A program made the position numbers and the translations under genes. DNA of 40,519 nt from an uncultured Bacteroidales bacterium. Lineage in GTDB: Bacteria; Bacteroidota; Bacteroidia; Bacteroidales; F082. The stretch lies in the NCBI GenBank assembly GCA_947303625.1, contig CAMYYV010000012.1:1-40519 (forward strand), read 5' to 3'. Numbering within the stretch: position 1 is the stretch's first letter; each line of letters starts with the position of its first letter. Shown in pieces: positions 31,594 through 39,949 of this stretch. The notes beneath the pieces are model-generated. The model was given only the letters and a program-made list of their open reading frames with translations, had not been told where the DNA came from and searched no databases.

Positions 31594-32379
31594 ATGAACA
31601 AAACTTTAAAGACGATTGCGGCCTTGATGCTGATGACTTTAGCTCTAATTGCCGCAGGATGTGGTTCAAAAAACTCCAATAAAGAAACTAAAAACGGTGA
31701 AGTCGAAAACACAAAGGTTGAAAATGAAGCAGTGGCCAATCCCGGCGAGGTTAAAAGCGTTGCTGAAGGCGAGGTCTACAATGGACATGCTTTCGTCGAT
31801 CTAGGCTTGCCAAGTGGCACGCTTTGGGCGACTTGCAATGTTGGCGCAGATAAGCCGGAGGACTACGGCGACTACTATGCTTGGGGTGAAACTACGGTAA
31901 AACCCTCGTACGATTGGGTGAATTATAAGTATTGTGAGGGCGGTGAGTCAAACCAACTGACTAAGTATTGCAGTTCTTCGGAAGATGGGTTTAAAGGCTT
32001 TAACGATAAACTGAACACCTTGGATCCGGCTGATGATGCTGTGACGGCCAATTGGGGCGATGGATGGTGCATGCCTACCGAGGCACAGTGGAGGGAATTG
32101 TTAGACAACACCACCTGCACTTGGACGACGTTTAATGGGGTGAAAGGCCGTCTCATGACTGCCGCTAATGGAGGTAGCCTCTTCCTGCCTGCTGCCGGTT
32201 TCCGCAGTAATGAGCTTCAAGATACTGAAAAGAATGCTTTCTATTGGTCGAGTTCGCTTTGCATTGATGTACCAAGCCGTGCAAGGTATTTTTATTTTTA
32301 CGATTCTGAGGCTTTTGACATGGATGAAGATGCCCGCTATTACGGTTATCCGGTTCGCGCCGTGCGTTCCAAAGAATGA
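31594..32379 (+). CDS. Lipoprotein with Fibrobacter-succinogenes-major-paralogue-like domain (variable tail 1)
   Basis: The 261-residue product has a lipobox ending at C23 (ALIAAGC) and an acidic, Asn/Glu-rich linker. A domain follows with DLGLPSGTLWATCNVGA, PEDYGDYYAWGE, GWCMPTEAQWREL and NGGSLFLPAAG; I recognise it as the FSMD/TIGR02145 type, related to C-type-lectin-fold modules. The last 45 residues run from FYWSSS to VRAVRSKE. Between these anchors the sequence differs strongly from its neighbours and is rich in Tyr, Asp, Phe and Arg. It is probably a lipid-anchored surface binding protein. It heads a set of four related plus-strand genes. Confidence 0.82.
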   Translation: MNKTLKTIAALMLMTLALIAAGCGSKNSNKETKNGEVENTKVENEAVANPGEVKSVAEGEVYNGHAFVDLGLPSGTLWATCNVGADKPEDYGDYYAWGETTVKPSYDWVNYKYCEGGESNQLTKYCSSSEDGFKGFNDKLNTLDPADDAVTANWGDGWCMPTEAQWRELLDNTTCTWTTFNGVKGRLMTAANGGSLFLPAAGFRSNELQDTEKNAFYWSSSLCIDVPSRARYFYFYDSEAFDMDEDARYYGYPVRAVRSKE

Positions 32380-32420
32380 GCTGTTTTATTATGCGGTATC
32401 AAGCAATTAAGTGATTGATT

Positions 32421-33134
32421 ATGAATGGCCTGTTGAAGATCATGGCTACCATGATGCTATTGATGGTTGTTGCAGTGAGTTGCAACAAACCGGAAGCGTC
32501 GGATGATGGAGGGAACGAAAATGGCAATGAGCTCAATGACCATGAATTCGTTGACCTTGGCTTGCCGAGCGGTATCTTGTGGGCTACCTGTAACGTTGGA
32601 GCTGACGCGGCTGAGGGATTTGGCGACTTCTTTGCCTGGGGCGAGACCGAAACCAAGGAACTCTATGATTGGAAGAGCTACAAATACGGAGTTTTCTTCT
32701 ATGAACGTTATGAGTTGAACAAATACTGCACCGATTCGGTTTATGGACAAAACGGATTTGTGGACCATCTGACCCTTTTGGAACCCAATGATGATGCAGC
32801 CAAGGTTTGTTGGGGCGCGGATTGGCGCATGCCCACCATAGAGGAATGGGAGGAATTGTTCCTGAATACGACGGGCACTTGGGTTGTGCAAAATGGTGTG
32901 AATGGGTGGCTTTTAACTGCTTCCAATGGAAACAGTGTCTTCCTGCCCGCTGCCGGCTACTGGTGGGATGGCGTGTATAATGCAAACTTGGGCCTCTACT
33001 GGTCGAGTTCGATTAACAAGGAGTATCCGTACCGTGCGTGGAGTTTCCACTTCAATTCGGACAGCAGCCATCTTTGCGGTAGCAGCGACCGAAACAGGGG
33101 ACAGACGGTGCGGGCGGTTTGCTTGGGGAAGTAA
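32421..33134 (+). CDS. Lipoprotein with FSMD-like domain (variable tail 2)
   Basis: The start is the ATG at 32421; a TTG two codons upstream is not needed. The 237-residue product has a lipobox ending at C21 (VVAVSC), then the same domain as its neighbour: EFVDLGLPSGILWATCNVGA, DFFAWGETE, DWRMPTIEEWEEL and NGNSVFLPAAGY. Its tail runs LYWSSS to VRAVCLGK with a different set of residues between, rich in Ser, Arg, Asn and His (SSHLCGSSDRNRG). It lies 41 bases after the first gene. It is probably surface exposed; the ligand is unknown. Confidence 0.82.
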   Translation: MNGLLKIMATMMLLMVVAVSCNKPEASDDGGNENGNELNDHEFVDLGLPSGILWATCNVGADAAEGFGDFFAWGETETKELYDWKSYKYGVFFYERYELNKYCTDSVYGQNGFVDHLTLLEPNDDAAKVCWGADWRMPTIEEWEELFLNTTGTWVVQNGVNGWLLTASNGNSVFLPAAGYWWDGVYNANLGLYWSSSINKEYPYRAWSFHFNSDSSHLCGSSDRNRGQTVRAVCLGK

Positions 33135-33180
33135 TTTATTTTGTTTCTTCGCAATGTCAAACAACTAAAACACAACAGAT
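33133..33180 (+). repeat. Leader sequence shared by two variable-tail lipoprotein genes (copy 2)
   Basis: Second copy of the leader described at 31545-31593, here between the second and third array genes: TTTTGTTTCTT, GCAATG, AAACAACTAAAACAC, then the ATG at 33181. The shared signal-peptide coding stretch starts at 33208. Confidence 0.65.
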
Positions 33181-34005
33181 ATGAGCAGAACATTGAAGGC
33201 AATAGCAGCCTTGATGCTGATGATGGTTTTTGCGGAAGGCTGTCAAAAACCTGATGATGGAGGAAATGACCCTGAGCAACCGGTTGTTGGACTGTTTTCG
33301 ATCAATGACAGTACTAGGGTGTGCTTTTCACCAGGCAATCTGCAATACCAAGCCTCAACTGATACATGGCGCTTTGCCGAACATCAATGGGATTATATCG
33401 GAGAGGGCAACGCCAATATCTCTGAAACCTACGATGGTTGGATTGACCTTTTTGGTTGGGGAACGGGTGACCATCCAACGGATACCTCAACTTATATGGA
33501 GCCTGTTGTCTATGGCACTTTTGCAGATTGGGGCGATAATTCTATTCAAAATTGGATTGGCCCTGAATGTCAATGGCGGACTCTTGAATGGATGGATTGG
33601 CATTATTTGTTATTCATCCGAAATACTGATTCGGGTATTCGTTTTTCTACCGCGACGGTTAATGGTATTAAAGGTTTGATATTGTTACCTGATGATTGGG
33701 ATATGTCCATTTATGGTTTTCTTAACTTCAATAATCAAGTAAATGAGTCAGAAGAGAACATTATTACGTTGCAAGAATGGGAAATAATAGAAAGGAAGGG
33801 CGCTATTTTTATGCCTAATGCAGGGATTCGGCTTGGGACAACGGTAAAATGGATCCAAGATTATGGTTTATATTGGATAGCTGGACCATCCGATCCAATT
33901 GCTTATGTGTTTTATGTTCAGTGTGCAGGAAAAATGGTGGGACTGCCCAATTATTGTCCCCGATATGCAGGGTTGTCCGTACGCCTTGTCCGAAATGCCG
34001 AATAA
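33181..34005 (+). CDS. Lipoprotein of the FSPGNLQY type (variable tail 3)
   Basis: The 274-residue product has the same style of signal peptide as the first array gene (LKAIAALMLM) and a lipobox ending at C21. The mature part is another subfamily: CFSPGNLQYQAST, WRFAEHQWDYIG, GWIDLFGWGTG, NGIKGLILLPDDW, then LYWIAG and a tail ending GLSVRLVRNAE. I recall this pattern from gut Bacteroidales surface proteins, some with hypervariable C-termini. The 11 bases GTACGCCTTGT encoding the VRLV anchor (33979-33989) recur exactly in the TIR gene (35145-35155). The gene is AT-richer than the flanking housekeeping genes. Confidence 0.8.
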   Translation: MSRTLKAIAALMLMMVFAEGCQKPDDGGNDPEQPVVGLFSINDSTRVCFSPGNLQYQASTDTWRFAEHQWDYIGEGNANISETYDGWIDLFGWGTGDHPTDTSTYMEPVVYGTFADWGDNSIQNWIGPECQWRTLEWMDWHYLLFIRNTDSGIRFSTATVNGIKGLILLPDDWDMSIYGFLNFNNQVNESEENIITLQEWEIIERKGAIFMPNAGIRLGTTVKWIQDYGLYWIAGPSDPIAYVFYVQCAGKMVGLPNYCPRYAGLSVRLVRNAE

Positions 34006-34198
34006 TGAAAATCCCTGCGATACCAAATGGCATTGTAGAGATTTCTTTGATGATCCGTCAATAAAGCAACCCAAACATCCATAGCGGGATTTTATTTCCA
34101 TAGCCCACTTCGGTTTCGTCAATGGCCATTGATGCTGTTTTCAGCTGGGAAAAGAAGTAAAATAATTCTGTGTGTTCATGGTTGATTGTTTTTCTTTC

Positions 34199-34206
34199 TA
34201 TTTTTG
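34199..34206 (+). promoter_or_regulatory. -7 promoter box (TATTTTTG) for the TIR-FSMD gene
   Basis: TATTTTTG matches TAnnTTTG and ends 20 bases before the ATG at 34227. The 221-base gap after the third lipoprotein gene otherwise holds only a weak AATCCC/GGGATT pairing and no convincing gene. Confidence 0.55.
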
Positions 34207-34226
34207 CCACGAAAAACAGATTCGTT

Positions 34227-35171
34227 ATGCACCACGACATATTTATCAGTTATTCAAGCAAGCAGAAAAGTATTGCAGATGGTGTTTGCCATTATTTGGA
34301 GGAGAATGGTTTCAAATGTTGGATGGCTCCGCGTGATATTCCTGTTGGGAGTGAATACGGCGATTTGATAGAAGAAGCCATTAAAGCTTGTAAGGCAGTT
34401 GTTCTGGTGTTTTCAGAAGCAGCTTCCATTTCCAAATGGGTTAAAGGGGAAATCAATGTTGCTTTTACCGAAGACAAACCAATCTTGCCTTTTAGAGTGG
34501 ATGAAACGGAGATTAAGGGCGGATTTAGGGTAATGTTGAATCAAATGCACTGGATTGATGCCTATCCACATTATGTTGACAGATTGCCCGATTTGTTGAA
34601 TTCCATTTCTGGTTTGCTTGGCAGACATTCGAAAAATGTGAATGTCGAACGTGACATACTAAAAACAATAGGAGGTAAGCCAAATCGTTCCGAAAAGCCT
34701 GCAAATTCCTTTAATGGCCATGAATATGTAGATTTAGGTCTACCTAGCGGTACACTTTGGGCAACCTGCAATGTGGGCTCCAGTAAACCCGAAGATTACG
34801 GTGATTATTATTCTTGGGATGAAGGTAGTAGAGTTGCTGCTCAGTGGGGTAATGGTTGGAGTATGCCAACTAAGGAACAATGGAATGAATTGAAAGGATA
34901 TGCGAAAAGTATATGGACAACAAAAAACGGGGTGAAGGGTAGATTGTTCTCTGCAAGCAATGGACAAAGTCTTTTCCTACCCGCTGCTGGTAACCGTTAC
35001 GGTGGTAGTCTATGCGGTGTGGGCAGACGATGCTATTACTGGTTGGGCTCGCTTTATACGGATCGCCCGAACTTCGCTTGGGGTCTTGACATCAGTTCGC
35101 ATAGTTGCGACATGAACTACAACTACTATAGCAGCGGTTTCTCTGTACGCCTTGTTTGCTCCTCGCATTAG
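34227..35171 (+). CDS. TIR domain fused to FSMD-like variable C-terminal domain
   Basis: The start is the ATG that opens MHHDIFISYSSKQ; no signal peptide is present, so the protein is cytoplasmic, unlike its three neighbours. Residues 1 to about 135 are a TIR domain: FISYSS, CWMAPRDIPVGSEY (BB-loop region), and SISKWVKGE with W71 and the putative NADase glutamate E75. After a linker, residues about 165-314 are an FSMD-like domain (YVDLGLPSGTLWATCNVGSS, GWSMPTKEQWNEL, NGQSLFLPAAGN). It is shorter by about 60 residues in the middle than in the lipoproteins. The tail runs YYWLGS to GFSVRLVCSSH. TIR enzymes in bacteria often cleave NAD+ in antiphage defence after a sensor is triggered. Here the lectin-like domain would be the sensor, which is inference. 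Confidence 0.85.
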   Translation: MHHDIFISYSSKQKSIADGVCHYLEENGFKCWMAPRDIPVGSEYGDLIEEAIKACKAVVLVFSEAASISKWVKGEINVAFTEDKPILPFRVDETEIKGGFRVMLNQMHWIDAYPHYVDRLPDLLNSISGLLGRHSKNVNVERDILKTIGGKPNRSEKPANSFNGHEYVDLGLPSGTLWATCNVGSSKPEDYGDYYSWDEGSRVAAQWGNGWSMPTKEQWNELKGYAKSIWTTKNGVKGRLFSASNGQSLFLPAAGNRYGGSLCGVGRRCYYWLGSLYTDRPNFAWGLDISSHSCDMNYNYYSSGFSVRLVCSSH

Positions 35172-35273
35172 AACTAACCTTTTATCGTTACTGGCTCCGC
35201 GGACAGGGCCGAGTTCATCGCGTTATCCCAAAGTCTCGCTGCTTTGTTGGAATTTCTTTTCCCCAAAAAGACA

Positions 35274-37510: not shown

Positions 37511-39949
37511 ATGGAGAACACAAAAGAATATATAGCATTTATTAGTTATCAGCGAAAAGATGAAGAATGGGCTGAATGGCTTCAACATCAGTTGGAACAC
37601 TATCGTCTGCCATCAAACATTCTTGAGGGACATCCAGAATTGCCTCACGAAATAAGGCCTTTGTTTCGTGATGCAACAGAACTATCAGGAGGTATATTGT
37701 CTAAAGAAATCAAATTGGCACTTGAGAATTCTCACTATCTCATTGTGATTTGTTCTCCCAATTCCTCGAAATCTGTGTGGGTAAATAAGGAAGTACAGAC
37801 ATTCATTGATATGGGAAAGCTGGAGTATATCATTCCGTTTATTGTTGATGGCATTCCTTATGCTCAATCTGAAGCAGAATGTTTTGTTCCTGCTCTTGCC
37901 AGTTTGCGAGGACAAGAACAGGAGTTACTAGGTATTAGTATTTCAGAAATGGGTCGAGAAGTAGCCTCTATTAAGGTTGTAGCTAGAATGCTCAACCTTC
38001 GATTTGATATGCTTTGGCAGCGATATGAGCGAGAGAAAGAGGAAGAACGAAAGAAACTAATTGAGACAAATAACAAAATCCGAAGGAATCAGGCTAGATT
38101 CATTTCAGAAAAAGTATTAGATCTTGTAGAAGAGAAAAACTCTTATACGGGGTGCCTTCTCGCATTGGAGGTGTTGCCAACAGCTTCTAATTCCGATTAT
38201 CCTTATACACCTGAAGCAGAAAGAGCATTTAGAATAGCGATTCAAAAGAACAGTGCTTTGTTGCATGGGCATAGTATATGTGTAAACACAGCTGTTTTCA
38301 ACAAAAACCGCAGATGGATTCTATCCGCAGCTGTGGATAAGACGATAAGATTGTGGGATGTTTATTCGGGAACATGCTTCAGGGTTTTTTCTGGGCACTC
38401 CGATGATGTAACGTCTGCTGTTTTCTTTGATAATGAGAAAAAGATTATTTCCGTTTCTAAAGACTGCACGATACGGGTTTGGGATATTCAGTTAGGTGTC
38501 TGTGAAAAGGTTATAGAAGGCCATCAAGAGATGATAACATCTGTTAGTCTCAATAGTGATGAGAGCTGTTTTGTCACCACTTCCAACAAGATCATAAAGC
38601 TATGGGACGCTTTTTCTGGAGAATGTCTAAATACTTTGTTCGGCCATGAAGATTGGGTCAATGATGCCAAATTCAGCCTTGACAATCAACTGATTGTGTC
38701 GGCATCAAGTGATAATACAATCCGAATATGGGCGGTTTCTGGTGAATGTGTAAAGGTGTTTAAAGGACCAGAAGAGGTTGACTGGGCATTAAAAGCTCAT
38801 TTTAATCATGAAGGAACAACTATTGAAAGCCTTTTTTCAGATGCACTTGGCTATGAATATGCGATTGACTGGAATTTCATTACAGGTGATATCATTGATA
38901 AGAAATTCATTGATTCATCTGATGAAACGCAGGAAAAAATGTCTGATGTTGTTCCCAAAGGCTGTGATGTGCATTTTTGGAAAGAAGATTCTGAATTATG
39001 TCAAGGCATACTGCAAGGTCATGCCAATATAGTAAACTCTGTTAGTTTCAGTTCCGATGGGAAATACGTTGTTTCAACATCAGACGATAAGACTGTAAAA
39101 ATATGGGATCTTGAAAACTATAAATGTATTGTGACTTTGGAAGGACATACAAGTTACACAAAGACTGCGGTATTCAGTCCAGACGAAAGTCTTGTTCTTT
39201 CTACCTCCTCGGACAAAACTGCAAAGCTTTGGGATGTGAAAACTGGTGAATGCCTTAATACATGGGGGGCGTTGAAAGGCAATTGGGCTTATTCTGCAGC
39301 ATTCAGCCCTAATGGTGAATTTTTCGCAATTGCCACCTATGAAGGCATAGAGTTGTATTACACGAGAAGTAGGGCATTAATTAAAAAGATATATACTTCT
39401 TCCTCTTATGTGGCTTTTAGTCATGATGGTAAGCAATTGGCATCTGCTTGCAATAACTATGGAATTCGATTATTTAATATTGATAGTGGAAGGTGTGTTC
39501 AGACATTTGCCCACAATGTGCGAACATCGCTTGTGGCTTTTTGCACAAATAGTAATTGTTTGGTGTCTATTACTGACCATAAACTATGTTTATGGGATTT
39601 GAATGACAATAGTTGTTCGCGGACTTATGATATTTCAGTAGAACACATTTCGCTTAATCCAAAGGATAAAAGATGCGTTTATACATCTAGTAGGTTATTT
39701 GGTAATAACTCTCTTCATGTTTTGGATTTAATATCAGGTAGAAAGATTCAGACGTTTGACGGACATACAAGCATTGTGAGTTCAGTCGCTTTTAATCCTC
39801 AAGGTGATAGGATCGCATCGGGGTCATGGGACTATAGCATCAGAATATGGGAAAGTCCTACGTTAAGTGTGTTGGTAGAAAAAGCCAAAGAACGTTTCAA
39901 AGACCGTCCGCTTACACCCGAGGAACGTCGCCAGTATTATTTGGAATGA
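37511..39949 (+). CDS. TIR domain protein with WD40 beta-propeller repeats
   Basis: The 812-residue protein opens with a TIR-like domain (about 1-165): AFISYQRKDEEWAEWLQ, then SSKSVWVNKEV, where W90 and E94 correspond to the W and catalytic Glu of TIR NADases. A charged coiled-coil-like stretch (RYEREKEEERKKLIETN) and a helical linker (GCLLALEVLP, PEAERAFRIAI) follow, a linker type that often precedes WD40 arrays. From about residue 250 there are about 12 recognisable WD40 blades (GHS..V...., IRLWDV, IRVWDI, IKLWDA, VKIWDL, AKLWDV, IRIWES). The fifth has an insertion and the eighth to eleventh are degenerate, so two propellers are possible. It ends TPEERRQYYLE. It is AT-rich beside htpG, which suggests transfer. 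It is a likely sensor-effector in defence or signalling; the trigger is unknown. Confidence 0.88.
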   Translation: MENTKEYIAFISYQRKDEEWAEWLQHQLEHYRLPSNILEGHPELPHEIRPLFRDATELSGGILSKEIKLALENSHYLIVICSPNSSKSVWVNKEVQTFIDMGKLEYIIPFIVDGIPYAQSEAECFVPALASLRGQEQELLGISISEMGREVASIKVVARMLNLRFDMLWQRYEREKEEERKKLIETNNKIRRNQARFISEKVLDLVEEKNSYTGCLLALEVLPTASNSDYPYTPEAERAFRIAIQKNSALLHGHSICVNTAVFNKNRRWILSAAVDKTIRLWDVYSGTCFRVFSGHSDDVTSAVFFDNEKKIISVSKDCTIRVWDIQLGVCEKVIEGHQEMITSVSLNSDESCFVTTSNKIIKLWDAFSGECLNTLFGHEDWVNDAKFSLDNQLIVSASSDNTIRIWAVSGECVKVFKGPEEVDWALKAHFNHEGTTIESLFSDALGYEYAIDWNFITGDIIDKKFIDSSDETQEKMSDVVPKGCDVHFWKEDSELCQGILQGHANIVNSVSFSSDGKYVVSTSDDKTVKIWDLENYKCIVTLEGHTSYTKTAVFSPDESLVLSTSSDKTAKLWDVKTGECLNTWGALKGNWAYSAAFSPNGEFFAIATYEGIELYYTRSRALIKKIYTSSSYVAFSHDGKQLASACNNYGIRLFNIDSGRCVQTFAHNVRTSLVAFCTNSNCLVSITDHKLCLWDLNDNSCSRTYDISVEHISLNPKDKRCVYTSSRLFGNNSLHVLDLISGRKIQTFDGHTSIVSSVAFNPQGDRIASGSWDYSIRIWESPTLSVLVEKAKERFKDRPLTPEERRQYYLE

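Follow-up and report, generated by a model that had tools for sequence, protein, structure and literature searches.

Do the unlike C-terminal tails of four neighboring genes in an uncultured Bacteroidales bacterium stem from a diversity-generating retroelement (DGR), and does such an element still act on them? The genes, called genes 1 to 4 here, are four tandem plus-strand open reading frames (ORFs) at 31594..35171 of contig CAMYYV010000012.1, whose 40,519 nucleotides were analyzed as a whole and are referred to as the window. The answer that we consider likely is that the tails are products of lost or absent DGRs, that the genes are stranded, and that some are now fixed receptors. DGR ancestry is strongly supported for these tails in the genus, well supported for the tail of gene 4, and moderately supported for those of genes 1 and 2. 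Gene 3 may share this history, as its anchors suggest.

Domain and tails of the four genes

Reading and alignment confirmed the layout of the genes and two features given in the preliminary description, namely, a domain shared by three of the four genes (genes 1, 2, and 4) and a tail that spans YW to VRAV/VRLV in all four. LPSG(T/I)LWATCNVG and FLPAAG are common to the three genes; in gene 3, the first motif is missing and FMPNAG takes the place of the second. The remark that the residues between the tail anchors hardly agree was correct for the four paralogues but not for the tails of genes 2 and 3 when compared with orthologues of other species, in which they are conserved. A hidden Markov model of the tail recovered all four genes. 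TIGR02145 matched genes 1, 2, and 4 with E values of 1.9e-05, 0.0056, and 3.1e-06, all under the curated cut-off, and gene 3 had no Pfam or NCBIfam match. The domain is named FISUMP-like here because the cut-off of FISUMP/Fib_succ_major (TIGR02145, PF09603) was not reached, whereas the TIR domain of gene 4 (PF13676) scored over its curated cut-off. Like DGR variable proteins, the products have a C-type lectin fold with the variable region at the C terminus, and the tails align with variable regions of congeneric DGRs. The first AlphaFold model of gene 4 had a pLDDT of 43 and was set aside.

The same tail in DGRs of the genus

Seven templates in 6 genomes of the genus encode this tail, with AAY codons (Y, pyrimidine) at 20 columns. 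Mismatches between template and variable region fell on template adenines in 19/20 and 20/21 cases in G033, 22/22 in G063, and 29/30 in G067; the counts were 24/30 in G026 and 18/34 at a second G067 locus. A reverse transcriptase (RT) like that of G033 (E<=1e-20) was present in 15/99 genomes. The RTs of G033, G026, and G058 have the same SQ motif as those of three viral contigs, and one of two RVT_1 matches in G034 was typed as SP motif. At the G033 locus (L053, 2257-9753), the target is followed by the hairpin, the accessory gene, the template, and the SQ-motif RT, and one G033 target is a protein kinase fused to the FISUMP-like domain. The locus, which also contains a PP2C phosphatase, a caspase-like gene, and another kinase, resembles a signaling or conflict module.

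The viral contigs L224-L226, two of which are nearly alike, contain the same DGR RT type and template-variable pairs in a C-terminal domain; in the best 70-base stretch, 13/13, 9/10, and 11/11 mismatches were at A. More template-variable pairs with mostly adenine mismatches, apparently of other DGRs and targets in the genus, were seen at L055, L066, L067, L069, L070, L113, and L115-L118.

Codon trace at template-adenine columns

In gene 4, 11/12 codons at 35100-35135 (CAT AGT TGC GAC ATG AAC TAC AAC TAC TAT AGC AGC) end in T or C, as had been described. On its own, this run is weak evidence because N, Y, H, D, and C residues dictate most of it. Template-adenine columns were defined as the 20 alignment columns where half or more of the templates have AAY; gene 3 was outside the codon test. 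Each compared with its own control columns, gene 1 had NNY codons at 17/20 template-adenine columns (p 0.047), gene 2 at 16/19 (p 0.058), and gene 4 at 19/20 (p 0.079). When the three genes were pooled, NNY occupied 52/59 template-adenine columns versus 44/72 control columns (Fisher p=0.0004), as expected of DGR targets at template-AAY sites. For all 9 FISUMP-like genes tested in the genome to which the window belongs (its own genome below), the counts were 156/174 versus 139/225 (p=7e-11).

The third-base test counted only residues able to take any third base; domains that fill <45 of the final 60 columns were left out, as were duplicates and template rows. At the template-adenine columns, genes of DGR genomes had Y third bases in 55/59 cases, the own genome in 44/54 (expected 0.63), and a strict set in 102/118 (expected 0.67). 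This set comprised 14 genes of 8 genomes that are >=90% complete and without an RVT_1 match. The strict set was preferred because the broader set of genus genomes not classed as DGR genomes includes G001, G009, and G040, which have SQ-motif RTs. Outgroup loci gave 49/79 (expected 0.57), with an interval that includes zero excess.

Control columns in the RT-less sets showed no clear third-base excess. The value was +0.07, with an interval touching zero, at the residue-rich control columns (N/Y/H/D/C/F) of the strict set, and a small excess (0.07) was present at other tail columns of the DGR-genome set too. Random sets of 20 other columns matched the observed excess in 10/2000 draws for the own genome and 0/2000 for the strict set. 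Residue choice alone as the cause of the NNY run was rejected via the control columns, though a shift by -1 column gives an excess too. When genes were split with a loose sequence pattern by the status of the 3' element that can follow the tail, Y third bases numbered 130/136 with the element (20 genes, expected 0.70), 111/140 with a partial one (20 genes, 0.65), 433/532 without it (71 genes, 0.67), and 95/136 in 18 outgroup or viral genes (0.67).

Hairpins and eroded cassettes

The hairpin model was built from 13 hairpins picked by eye (alignment A3), with 130 of 172 domain outputs viewed. It comprises 27 pairs, with 95.1% of cells paired and 13 pairs changed on both sides. Covariation beat shuffles (0/500) on four of five measures; on the fifth, further pair types, it was no better than shuffles (141/500). 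Run on 67 and 86 partly overlapping loci (1.04 Mb), the model found 17 distinct places, counting opposite-strand matches and repeats in overlapping loci once, and all were 35-62 bp past a FISUMP-like tail. Eleven are in A3, and the 6 new ones are the C1 orphan tail of the own genome, the TIR-FISUMP-like gene of G025 (a weaker match, 29.6 bits), G019, G016 C113, G021 C26, and G048. Rfam gave no match at gathering cut-offs in three loci, and a search of viral contigs for the exact pattern of the 3' element found nothing.

In G034, G057, G012, G016, G019, and G008, the hairpin and then an open frame that matches only 42-83/179 accessory residues come after the gene. No G033-like RT (E<=1e-20) was found in these six stub-bearing genomes; other RVT_1 matches are present in G008, G016, and G034. 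The accessory-gene breakpoint is common to G034, G057, and G012, and the tails of G034 and G057 are unlike.

The hairpin of DGR targets was found after none of the window genes, and its model had no match in the window. At the stop codon of gene 4, a 26-base stretch of the 3' element remains, and its 13-mer is expected 0.03 times in the window. More of the element is retained at C86, and C1 of the own genome has the whole element with hairpin after two tails. There (L076, 5049-6442), an orphan FISUMP-like tail without the core domain precedes a full FISUMP-like gene, and their 3' flanks are nearly identical. With the accessory gene as the query, the best match in the window and five own-genome stretches had an E of 0.033.

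Two side observations concern these elements. Upstream of the C1 genes lies a cluster of other proteins with YWSS...RVRPIRK-type tails (L076, 156-5085). A second 3' element class (AGAATAAA..GCGAAGCG.ATTCAATTTATT, then a CCGTCGGG/CCCGACGG-type hairpin) stands after genes of another DGR lineage at L106, L107, L109, and L018.

Variation between relatives

Several pairs of genes that are near-identical elsewhere differ at codon positions 1-2 of the template columns and retain the third base. L029 (G057) and L134 (G034) differ there in 23/38 cases at positions 1-2 and in 1/19 at position 3; upstream, they differ at 0/134 third bases and 8/268 other bases. For L123 and L141, the counts are 23/40 and 0/20. 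No template was found in G034, listed as 100% complete, where a search with the L134 tail gave itself and two weaker paralogues.

Gene 4 has a syntenic relative at L163, on a contig labelled Prevotella sp. RGIG7581, in which a TIR-FISUMP-like gene adjoins the same end of htpG (89% over 435 bp). Identity between the TIR parts is 75%, while 28/40 first and second bases differ at the template columns, and the third-base class (Y or R) changed at 4/20. The tail of another TIR-FISUMP-like gene, in G047, is 73% identical to a G067 template; 31/48 of the mismatches are at A, and 20/20 columns have NNY. Directly 5' of the L163 gene lies an FGE-sulfatase-type gene (9-797), whose family is also used as a DGR target. 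In the window, a second TIR-like gene (37511-39949, 812 aa) with WD40 repeats lies downstream of htpG.

Genes 2 and 3 showed no hypervariation between species. Twelve orthologues of gene 2, chosen for being the best DNA matches and verified with BLASTP, have 66-74% identity, and HLCGSSDRN.GQ is almost invariant. In this group of 13 sequences, the ratio of nonsynonymous to synonymous differences (pN/pS) was 0.10 at template columns, 0.38 at other tail columns, and 0.20 upstream; it was 0.09 in a second frozen group of four species. The tail of gene 3 is mostly conserved in three orthologues. For gene 1, no tail-covering orthologue was present among the DNA matches listed. The features of the locus are collected in Table 1.

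Table 1. Coordinates of the four genes, their tails, and associated features in the window
Feature	Coordinates	Strand	Remarks
Gene 1	31594..32379	+	Lipoprotein-like, FISUMP-like domain; signal peptide and lipobox by eye
Gene 1 tail, ends VRAV	32200..32364	+	17/20 NNY at template-adenine columns
Gene 2	32415..33134	+	Lipoprotein-like, FISUMP-like domain; Lcl_C E 1.5e-07, below cut-off; frozen orthologue group
Gene 2 tail, ends VRAV	32958..33119	+	Conserved in 12 other species
Gene 3	33181..34005	+	Lipoprotein-like; distant FISUMP-like variant
Gene 3 tail, ends VRLV	33826..33990	+	Mostly conserved across three orthologues
Gene 4	34227..35171	+	TIR-FISUMP-like protein; ORF opens at 34170, ATG at 34227 likelier start
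Gene 4 TIR domain	34239..34565	+	PF13676, 81.3 bits versus cut-off of 28
Gene 4 tail, ends VRLV	34992..35156	+	19/20 NNY at template-adenine columns
DGR 3' element remnant (AGAACTAACCTTT...)	35170..35195	+	Overlaps end of gene 4 stop codon; without hairpin

Relics or current targets

No DGR RT was found in the 77%-complete assembly of the own genome, with 0 RVT_1 matches and 0 matches at E<=10 to the G033 RT. A DNA search of this assembly for a template with the gene 4 tail returned only gene 4 itself above noise, and the G033 template returned C1 twice, C86, and gene 2, then noise. All template-search matches at E<0.01 were FISUMP-like genes or tails, and none was AAY-rich. As a positive control, the same kind of query in G033 recovered its template and both variable regions. 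The absence of a DGR is unproven because the assembly is incomplete.

The preliminary description had proposed DGR targets or relics of them, with the DGR possibly elsewhere in the genome. Relics are what the results favor: congeneric DGRs use the domain, the codon trace appears in the pooled genes, and part of the 3' element remains at gene 4. Current targets of a DGR elsewhere in the own genome are not borne out, as the RT and template searches of the incomplete assembly came back empty and the hairpin model was silent in the window. The preliminary description had also named an outcome that would speak against DGR targets, namely, no DGR in the genome and variation between strains that is evenly spread or mainly synonymous. 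Genes 2 and 3 show this outcome, in that no DGR was found and their tail variation between species is mainly synonymous, but gene 4, with its 28/40 differences, does not.

Several points weigh against stranded DGR products. The window genes are significant only when pooled, gene 1 alone being marginal. Shifting the columns by -1 gives a third-base excess of 0.257 in the own genome, larger than the 0.189 at the true columns, and 0.161 versus 0.198 in the strict set. Gene 4 is distant from all templates seen (22/40 at template-column positions 1-2; also 21/72 and 20/36 elsewhere), some pairs vary at third bases too (e.g., 10/20 for L124/L157), and the hairpin is possibly also a terminator. The own genome is only 77% complete. 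For gene 2, pS is near saturation and the choice of best DNA matches favors copies with matching tails; thus, these data were taken as proof of one frozen lineage, not of all relatives.

The alternative that survives best, although we consider it unlikely, is ongoing diversification in trans: a DGR in the 23% of the genome that the assembly lacks, or on a phage or another element of the population, would still be rewriting the window genes. The incomplete assembly, the strong difference between gene 4 and its syntenic relative, the same RT type on predicted phage contigs, and the intact hairpins at C1 would all fit. However, no template was found, although the template query recovers the C1, C86, and gene 2 relatives; such an RT occurs in only 15/99 genomes of the genus, the window has no hairpin match, and genes 2 and 3 are conserved.

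Less probable still is a reshuffling of the tails by gene conversion between paralogues, in which DGRs would have acted only in the distant past. Each genome has many paralogues, the 3' flanks of the two C1 tails are nearly identical, and G034, G057, and G012 combine one accessory-gene breakpoint with unlike tails. Conversion would copy tracts including third bases and anchors, rather than restrict changes to codon positions 1-2, and no donor of the L134 tail was found in G034. Least probable of all is ordinary fast evolution of a lectin-like domain, with N, Y, D, H, and S favored at binding positions and DGR likeness due to family descent without DGR action here, which would suit the many residue-dictated Y third bases, the excess at the -1 shift, and the slow evolution of the gene 2 and 3 tails but not the lack of a clear excess at N/Y/H/D/C/F-rich columns of RT-less sets, the pairs that differ at positions 1-2 while their third bases agree, or the accessory stubs and hairpins beside the genes of congeners.

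Proposed history of the locus

On the reading of stranded DGR products, the tails would be the C-terminal binding sites of C-type-lectin-fold (FISUMP-like) proteins, with variable positions written by DGRs. Template RNA would be copied into cDNA with random bases at template adenines, which would home into the 3' end of the gene, beside the hairpin. In this lineage, the RT and template would be gone or have been supplied only temporarily. Hairpin loss may lock a target, as work on BPP-1 (PMC3240598) and the decay seen here suggest. The order in which DGR parts were lost can be proposed only tentatively.

Genes 2 and 3 would have been locked long ago and maintained by purifying selection, which would make them fixed receptors borne by lipoproteins. 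Diversification of gene 4 probably came later, with only the start of the 3' element remaining. Gene 4 couples the same kind of sensor to a TIR effector; thus, ligand binding would plausibly switch TIR signaling or NAD+ cleavage. The receptor or ligand role of the lectin-like domains and the TIR activity are predicted from fold and domain.

A bolder extension, possible but rather doubtful, is that DGRs in the genus are hit-and-run mutators. Cassettes of receptor gene and hairpin would outlive their RT and be rediversified in trans by the RT and template of a phage or other element, and winners would be locked by hairpin loss and kept germline-like, including intracellular TIR sensors. The accessory breakpoint shared by G034, G057, and G012, with unlike tails, fits this extension.

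Silent third bases together with the 3' hairpin offer a means to recognize DGR-made binding sites after the element is lost. Such sites can turn fixed and selected, and how often programmed diversification seeds permanent receptors becomes testable. DGR-type sensors on TIR effectors in gut-type Bacteroidales are a possible link to bacterial immunity.

Comparison with known systems

Fib_succ_major/DUF1566 DGR targets, TIR-containing DGR targets, and leftover targets without RT or template are already known, and further background is found in PMC7159879, PMC8144416, PMC6642488, and PMC8867640. In the literature searched, mostly outside subscription journals, no earlier report was found of a stranded family that spans several species, combines accessory stubs with a long covarying hairpin, and conserves its former variable sites. 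It has been suggested that the diversification parts may be discarded once a good variant exists (PMC7517822).

Among DGR variable proteins, 47 DUF1566 and 9 Fib_succ_major proteins have been listed (Ye 2014, PMC4159848). The window genes resemble these targets in the kind of domain, the C-terminal variable region, and the changes at template adenines. The listed targets were called from template-variable pairs, whereas no template or RT was found for the window genes, some of which are frozen. In Treponema denticola, target genes occur in isolates without RT or template, with mostly adenine differences from known templates (PMC4891356). These are likewise leftover targets, most of them with lipoprotein signals, but they come from isolates of one species; here, many species of a genus are involved, accessory genes are truncated, hairpins have decayed, and orthologues are conserved.

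Like gene 4, the TIR-containing targets of Thiohalocapsa DGR 2 (PMC10907252) and of cyanobacteria (PMC7517822) join TIR to a variable domain of the C-type-lectin kind. In Thiohalocapsa, the DGR is present and the target includes a CHAT domain as well, whereas gene 4 encodes a short TIR-FISUMP-like protein and no RT was found. Finally, the hairpins described here are GC-rich and lie downstream of the variable region, as in known DGRs, and a GRNA loop fits 8/13 of those aligned (GGCA, GGTA, and GGGA). Known DGR hairpins have 7-10 bp stems and 4-34 bp spacing, whereas in these, three stacked segments add up to 27 pairs, and the distance from the tail is 35-62 bp.

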